Assembly: GCF_029626225.1 (NCBI RefSeq)
Contig: NZ_JARUBP010000001.1
Span: 2,232,001-2,296,000 of the forward strand
From: Asanoa sp. WMMD1127
GTDB taxonomy: Bacteria; Actinomycetota; Actinomycetes; Mycobacteriales; Micromonosporaceae
Length of the DNA stretch: 64,000 nucleotides
Reading direction: 5' to 3'
A program made the translations under genes and the position numbers. Below the pieces are notes generated by a model. It had not been told where the DNA came from. It saw only the letters and a program-made list of their open reading frames with translations, and searched no databases. Of the stretch, positions 35,229 to 35,459 are shown piece after piece (the first letter of the stretch is position 1; the number at the start of each line of letters is the position of its first letter).

Positions 35229-35322
35229 CGCGGAAGAGCTCCTGAGGCTGGAGAGTCATGGGCGCCATCGGGCGGCGTGGTCAACGGTTCGGTGTGCAGC
35301 GAACGGACGGCGCGACTCAGCT

Positions 35323-35359
35323 CCGCGACGGGGTGCCGGCCTAGAGGGCCCCGTCGCGG
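35323..35359 (-). promoter_or_regulatory. leuA leader hairpin (attenuator candidate)
   Basis: An 11-bp perfect stem, CCGCGACGGGG at 35323-35333 with CCCCGTCGCGG at 35349-35359, around a 15-nt loop. In the transcript the 5' arm lies in leader codons 10-14 and the leader stop lies in the loop. A ribosome stalled on the leucine codons just upstream would cover the 5' arm. No T-tract follows, so it may act by Rho, pausing or translation rather than as an intrinsic terminator. Confidence 0.65.
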
Positions 35360-35388
35360 CAAGGAAGCAGGAGCTGCCGGTGCCACAT
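35341..35388 (-). CDS. leuA leader peptide (15 residues)
   Basis: A short frame starting at ATG 35388, 160 bp before leuA, encodes MWHRQLLLPCRDGAL and stops with TAG. Three consecutive leucine codons (CTC CTG CTT) at positions 6-8 and one at 15 fit an attenuation leader. Leucine leaders before leuA have been predicted in actinobacteria. A possible -10 (TAGGGT) with a TTGGCC -35 lies immediately upstream, so the transcript may be nearly leaderless. The leucine codon stretch is complementary to the leuA Shine-Dalgarno. Confidence 0.75.
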   Translation of the reverse strand: MWHRQLLLPCRDGAL

Positions 35389-35459
35389 GACACGATCACC
35401 CTACGTGAGCCCGTCGTGATTTGGCCAAAGCCCTTCCGCACTCTGAGACGAAAGTCTCG

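Follow-up and report, generated by a model that had tools for sequence, protein, structure and literature searches.

A likely leucine-responsive LEU element before leuA of Asanoa sp. WMMD1127, and related elements before leuA, leuB and leuC in Actinomycetes

Among described systems, the LEU element found before leuA in actinobacteria comes closest; it was published in 2005 and already includes a base stem between leucine codons and the Shine-Dalgarno (SD) sequence of leuA (Seliverstov et al., PMC1262725). The LEU element shares with the locus and family studied here a leader peptide with a leucine run, this base stem and the same gene, leuA; as published, it also has a pseudoknot, located within the base stem, and an alternative hairpin. 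Whether Leu codons or a protein are sensed in actinobacterial leuA control was left unsettled by its authors, who prefer a protein binder and name a helicase-domain protein of the ML1624 type as a candidate (PMC1262725). On S. coelicolor mutants, the paper states in one place that changes to the leuA leader peptide had some effect, inconsistent with classical attenuation, and in another place that changes to Leu codons were without influence on regulation. Its text contains no leaderless promoter spacing, no phylogeny-controlled test of the base stem and no elements before leuB or leuC, and it names one element within a transposase gene. The original prediction for the window (the whole 64,000-nt stretch of DNA analysed here) held that a design in which leucine codons mask the leuA SD may be new; this masking design is already in print as the base stem of the LEU element, and what is new is the wider family and the co-evolution test, not the window.

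Several other leaders resemble the locus in part. The leuL1 leader of Streptomyces lividans, MRFGLLLLSCRGEGL, precedes leuA, is transcribed leaderless and has no typical Rho-independent terminator, all of which it has in common with the window (where leaderless transcription is probable), although the excerpted text lists it as a leader peptide and gives no account of SD masking (PMC8079986). In Corynebacterium glutamicum, a leuA leader with four consecutive Leu codons was detected by RNA sequencing; it is like the window in having consecutive Leu codons before leuA, but is discussed in the excerpt as transcriptional attenuation, with no SD masking (PMC4046766). The ilvB-II motif, or ilvBNC leader, of Corynebacterium likewise has codons for branched-chain amino acids in a short ORF upstream of its genes, but is thought, according to the excerpted source, to act on transcription via a terminator hairpin (PMC10272879).

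The features of the locus in the window are as follows.

33492..35228, minus strand: leuA, 2-isopropylmalate synthase, 578 aa (NCBIfam TIGR00970, 861 bits against a cut-off of 697)
35341..35388, minus strand: leader ORF, MWHRQLLLPCRDGAL and a stop, 15 codons, the stop lying within the hairpin loop
35365..35373, minus strand: sensor codons CTC CTG CTT (consecutive Leu)
35368..35375, minus strand: predicted base stem, 5' strand AGCUCCUG, overlapping Leu codons 1-2 (fold and co-evolution test)
35237..35244, minus strand: predicted base stem, 3' strand CAGGAGCU, including the leuA SD (fold and co-evolution test)
35349..35359, minus strand: 11-bp hairpin, 5' arm, coding for the end of Cys and Arg-Asp-Gly-Ala (in part)
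35323..35333, minus strand: 11-bp hairpin, 3' arm (covariation and swap test)
35335..35341, minus strand: possible pseudoknot, hairpin-loop strand GGCCGGC (family pairing counts and swap tests)
35305..35311, minus strand: possible pseudoknot, downstream strand GCCGUCC, with one C-U mismatch in the window (family pairing and direct reading)
35318..35324, minus strand: GGAGCUG, originally predicted as the alternative partner of CAGCUCC (the swap test gives no support)
35398..35403, minus strand: putative -10 box TAGGGT, ending 9 nt before the leader ATG

In a direct reading of the minus strand, the leader (35388-35341) precedes leuA as in the LEU element, the leuA ATG at 35228 lying 160 nt past the leader start codon. 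The octamer AGCTCCTG (35375-35368) is the exact reverse complement of the SD-bearing CAGGAGCT (35244-35237), and in the predicted fold of the window RNA this 8-bp base stem of Leu codons and leuA SD forms with a pairing probability of 0.88-0.96. Every coordinate and pairing named in the original prediction was present (the leader, the 11-bp hairpin, and the 8-bp and 7-bp matches), the last of these existing as complementarity between CAGCTCC (35376-35370) and GGAGCTG (35324-35318). As for its caution about chance pairing, the 8-bp match of the window alone has a chance probability of 3-17%. A run of at least 8 bp arose in 17% of recodings when the SD was fixed and the Leu codons were redrawn from measured leuA usage, and in 16% when the whole leader was recoded; with random flanks around GGAG, the chance of an 8-bp run was 3%. 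On its own, the 8-bp pairing of the window thus exceeds chance weakly. As judged by covariation among relatives, the window hairpin does exceed chance. The overall fold of the leader is unremarkable (z=-1.59; 14 of 200 shuffles were as good).

A scan with loops of 3-8 nt only returned no terminator-like site in 35200-35500, and in a direct reading of the window no U-run follows the 3' arm of the 11-bp hairpin. An intrinsic terminator in competition with an antiterminator, as in a classical transcription attenuator, was thus not seen in this region. Within 35180-35480, no curated Rfam family matched up to E=10. The protein encoded directly upstream of the leader (35460-36257, minus strand) begins, by eye, like a lipoprotein and matches the CU044_5270 family weakly (20 bits against a cut-off of 100), and an aspartate kinase gene (36475-37755, plus strand) neighbours the leader and leuA on the opposite strand. 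Other RNAs in the window are a bacterial small SRP RNA (17797-17887) and two tRNA genes (14254-14340 and 40624-40697).

The window leader is likely a LEU element that acts as a leucine-responsive translational attenuator. The leader AUG would coincide with the transcription start or follow it closely. With plentiful leucine, ribosomes would move past the Leu codons and leave the RNA, the hairpin would form (together with the pseudoknot in many relatives), and the Leu-codon strand would pair with the leuA SD and shut leuA translation. When charged tRNA-Leu is short, the ribosome would wait on the Leu codons and cover that strand, leaving the leuA SD free. We infer the ribosome stalling, the repressed and induced states and the effect on expression. 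Polycysteine leaderless short-ORF attenuators were reportedly described in mycobacteria by Canestrari in 2020, and to our knowledge none of them has a LEU hairpin. The attenuation logic of these mycobacterial short ORFs is similar to that proposed here, with a leaderless sensor ORF on which the pace of the ribosome determines how far the following gene is translated, although, in the excerpted part of the review, cysteine rather than leucine is sensed (PMC9031893).

The family was examined in 290 leuA-type loci, with some genomes present in both collections. A first pass based on the peptide pattern and a hairpin with at least 9 of 11 pairs called the element in 258 loci. One of these, L259, was dropped after an inspection of its peptide and arms, rather than by a score against R1, the covariance model described below, leaving 257; it is still within the 252 loci of the folding and pairing statistics, and is absent from the later swap tests (125 pairs for the Leu run and SD, and the pseudoknot re-tests). 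The model R1, built from 40 diverse leuA leaders including that of the window, found 13 further elements among 32 other loci tested, and the element is present by pattern and hairpin, then R1, in 270 of the 290 leuA loci. The 20 loci without it are L130-L138 and L254-L261 (17 loci of the phylum-wide sample), the paralogues L263 and L265, and L216. Of the 216 genomes of the class, 211 have at least one R1 match, as do 11 of the 119 genomes of the phylum sample; one of these 11 (G166) is labelled as outside the class. The window element scores 65.3 bits (E=1e-11) against R1, its own sequence being part of the model by construction, and is the best match in its genome, where the next best reaches 27.9 bits. 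Seven weaker R1 matches were fetched from this genome and appeared chance-like by eye, so a second element was rejected, and its leuB locus had no R1 match up to E=0.5.

The leader stop lies inside the hairpin loop in 218 of 257 loci and past the 3' arm in 39. In L242, L247 and L248, which belong to one family by label, a stop TAG seemingly falls within the 5' arm (CCCGTAGC), giving a shorter peptide with the hairpin kept. Second leuA paralogues with 50-56% identity to the window LeuA have LEU elements of their own (L310, L311, L315, L316, L322 and L323). Val or Ile occurs within five codons before the hairpin in 38 of 258 leuA leaders. At the last Leu codon, 239 of the 257 loci have CTT, 17 have CTC and 1 has CTG; this near-invariant CTT (35367-35365 in the window) contrasts with its share of 2.6% among 7028 Leu codons in leuA genes. 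Pairing with the SD was rejected as the reason, since, depending on the register, a minority or roughly half of the loci have A or G at the facing SD position. The G just before the hairpin 5' arm (35360 in the window) has a weighted frequency of 1.00, yet is unpaired in the hairpin model.

Folding was compared with and without a stalled-ribosome footprint, as the original prediction had proposed, with pseudoknots left out of all folds. In the window, predicted SD unpairedness rises from 0.03 in free RNA to 0.39, 0.37 and 0.43 with the footprint at Leu 6, 7 and 8, respectively, in line with the proposal; a ribosome at the leader stop codon also frees the SD (0.39). Across the 252 loci, the mean unpaired fraction of the SD is 0.22 in free RNA and 0.37 when a ribosome occupies the last Leu codon, compared to 0.23 with blocks of the same size elsewhere and 0.21 with the ribosome further on, at the hairpin. 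The stalled state is higher than the block control in 150 of 219 loci and lower in 56, and stalling shifts SD unpairedness by more than 0.1 upward in 121 loci and downward in 16.

Sequence comparison indicates strong covariation of the 11-bp hairpin. Changes on both sides occur at 6 of its 11 pairs in a set of 40 diverse sequences, where 98.9% of cells are paired, and an untargeted covariation scan ranked hairpin pairs second to fourth, after a short-range pair in the loop (columns four apart). Co-evolution was also assessed by a swap test, in which the closest non-overlapping locus pairs differing in both strands were picked greedily on a tree from approximately 150 nt of leuA, and the binding of cognate strands was compared with that of exchanged ones. 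For the hairpin arms, the cognate strands were better in 94 pairs and worse in 3, with 18 ties (115 pairs). The helix between the loop and the downstream strand has at least 6 Watson-Crick pairs in 150 of 252 loci, with a mean longest run of 5.7 against 4.6 for shuffles (252 loci), and its swap test varies with the segments chosen: 57:51 (Wilcoxon p=0.05), 49:43 (p=0.004) and 63:40 (p=2e-4), the control being 57:56. In the window, the hairpin stem of the possible pseudoknot is present and the second helix consists of 4 contiguous pairs (CGGC/GCCG), or 6 of 7 with a mismatch. The alternative 7-bp pairing of the Leu run with the hairpin flank, the second arm of the originally predicted switch, shows no co-evolution (59 versus 49, not significant).

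The masking of the leuA SD by the Leu codons, in contrast to that alternative, is consistent with both the fold of the window and the class as a whole. Leu-run/SD pairing was better for cognate strands in 73 pairs and worse in 41, with 12 ties, when L259 was included (126 pairs), and in 73 versus 40, with 12 ties, without it (125 pairs; sign test p=0.001, Wilcoxon p=5e-6). Five re-pairings gave 69-73 versus 38-42. Controls upstream of the SD (61:52) and inside leuA (50:51) were flat, and the leader stretch before the Leu run was not quite so (62:46, Wilcoxon p=0.04), perhaps from stems extending into this stretch. Leu-run/SD pairing thus appears to co-evolve in phylogenetically separated pairs, with two controls flat and the third weak. 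Cognate SDs also bind better than exchanged ones (-11.01 versus -9.90; reached in 0 of 5000 permutations, which are not corrected for kinship). Consistent covariation at single extended positions was not seen, and an extension of the base stem beyond GGAG in a fixed register was rejected.

Alternatively, translation of the leader may control transcription (by a Rho-dependent or polarity-type mechanism), the Leu/SD complementarity being mostly the natural match of CUC-CU with GGAG. A null drawn from codon usage, computed for 233 distinct leader/SD combinations with assumed usage values that were measured later, pairs with the SD as well as the real Leu runs do (means of -11.07 for the null and -11.01 kcal/mol for the real runs), and a tuning of codon choice for SD pairing was accordingly rejected; the real runs are better than a null with the four CUN codons equal (-11.01 versus -9.24). 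The chance probability of the window match given above agrees with this alternative, as does the spread of predicted Leu/SD pairing among the 252 loci, which exceeds 0.5 in 140 and is below 0.05 in 67. Among the 82 lowest- and highest-numbered loci, mostly from the window's family, the corresponding numbers are 38 and 28. Relatives that keep the Leu codons and lose complementarity to the SD had been named in the original prediction as the outcome that would contradict it, and the 67 loci show that this occurs in part. The co-evolution of Leu run and SD in independent pairs, with its two flat controls, argues against control of transcription, which we regard as unlikely.

The proposal of 2005, that a regulatory protein binds the LEU element and that the leader peptide is secondary, was argued from phylogenetic co-occurrence and the S. 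coelicolor mutants (PMC1262725), and some near-invariant bases outside the hairpin (for example CUU as the final Leu codon, and the G that precedes the 5' arm) are compatible with it. The promoter spacing of the leader argues against a protein site. A TANNNT box ends 6-11 nt before the in-frame leader start in 256 of 257 leuA loci, compared to 12 of 257 with shuffled upstream sequence, and the leader transcript is therefore probably leaderless or nearly so, with a predicted transcription start at approximately 35390-35391 in the window.

A second argument comes from elements before other genes. Thirty-one additional R1 matches were fetched, comprising 20 second or third matches at E up to 1e-4 (98 genomes) and 11 places picked by eye among the matches listed in the R1 search of 216 genomes. 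Typing by tblastn, among the matches listed, assigned 15 places to leuB, 4 to leuC and 10 to leuA or a leuA paralogue, with 2 undecided (L400 and L402); within the set of 98 genomes, the second or third matches at E up to 1e-4 lie before leuB in 13 genomes and before leuC in 1.

Elements before leuB: L304-L306, L308, L309, L312-L314, L317-L321, L401 and L403
Elements before leuC: L307 and L404-L406

All 14 leuB leaders with a clear frame (that of L321 is unclear) contain Val or Ile codons, and 13 contain both, e.g., MLWTVRILRCRDEAR, MRFVLILRCRDGA and MRQVLVLITCRGGA; L351 (MRKQLVVIACRGGAS) is a further leuB case of the Val/Ile type outside these counts. The leuC leaders have three Leu codons in 4 of 4 cases. 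In a test of 11 of the 14 leuB loci, leader/SD pairing was better for cognates (permutation p=0.03; duplex energies -3.2 to -18.2); the SD used was the one before the first small ORF, which was picked by eye. Many leuB loci (L304 and others) have a short ORF between the leader and leuB, approximately 35-320 nt past the element, which ends in a motif like QEAMDRRDNGG or LDLRD..RPDDN and could encode a conserved small protein. An ilvE-like aminotransferase gene, recognized by eye, follows leuB in several element-bearing loci. The element does not generally precede leuB: with a limit of E=0.01, R1 found it in 7 of 30 class loci, a set of the nearest relatives of the leuB from an element-bearing genome that in part repeats the places above, and in 0 of 16 loci of the window's family (L369 being without upstream sequence). 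Before leuC, it was found in 1 of 30 class loci at the same threshold. Among the matches listed, no report of LEU-type elements before leuB or leuC was found in open-licence PMC papers.

As the codons match the operon (Leu at leuA and leuC, Val/Ile/Leu at leuB), the comparison favours codon sensing over the protein-binding model of 2005: the sensor codons appear to follow the operon product while the hairpin is kept, a change from Leu to Val/Ile/Leu before leuB that a protein site would not need. We therefore consider the protein site quite unlikely. That the leader is conserved and simply not leucine-responsive in the organism of the window, as the weak pseudoknot with its 4 contiguous pairs might suggest, is very improbable, since the 8-bp stem is retained in L002 and L003, two relatives from the same genus, with a predicted Leu/SD pairing of 0.96 and 0.99.

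If the sensor codons of a translational attenuator double as the mask of the SD, changing them would break sensing and masking together, and this joint loss could explain mutants that look paradoxical. The odd phenotypes of the 1999 S. coelicolor Leu-codon mutants may thus be due to a broken mask. For Actinomycetes in general, we lean towards viewing the LEU element as a translational attenuator that is portable among genes for the synthesis of branched-chain amino acids. The sensor codons of its leaderless ORF would mask the next SD; they would be Leu codons at leuA and leuC and a mixture of Val, Ile and Leu codons at leuB(-ilvE), so that the codons would be exchanged and the hairpin kept. 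The match between codons and operon would make codon sensing directly testable by codon swaps.
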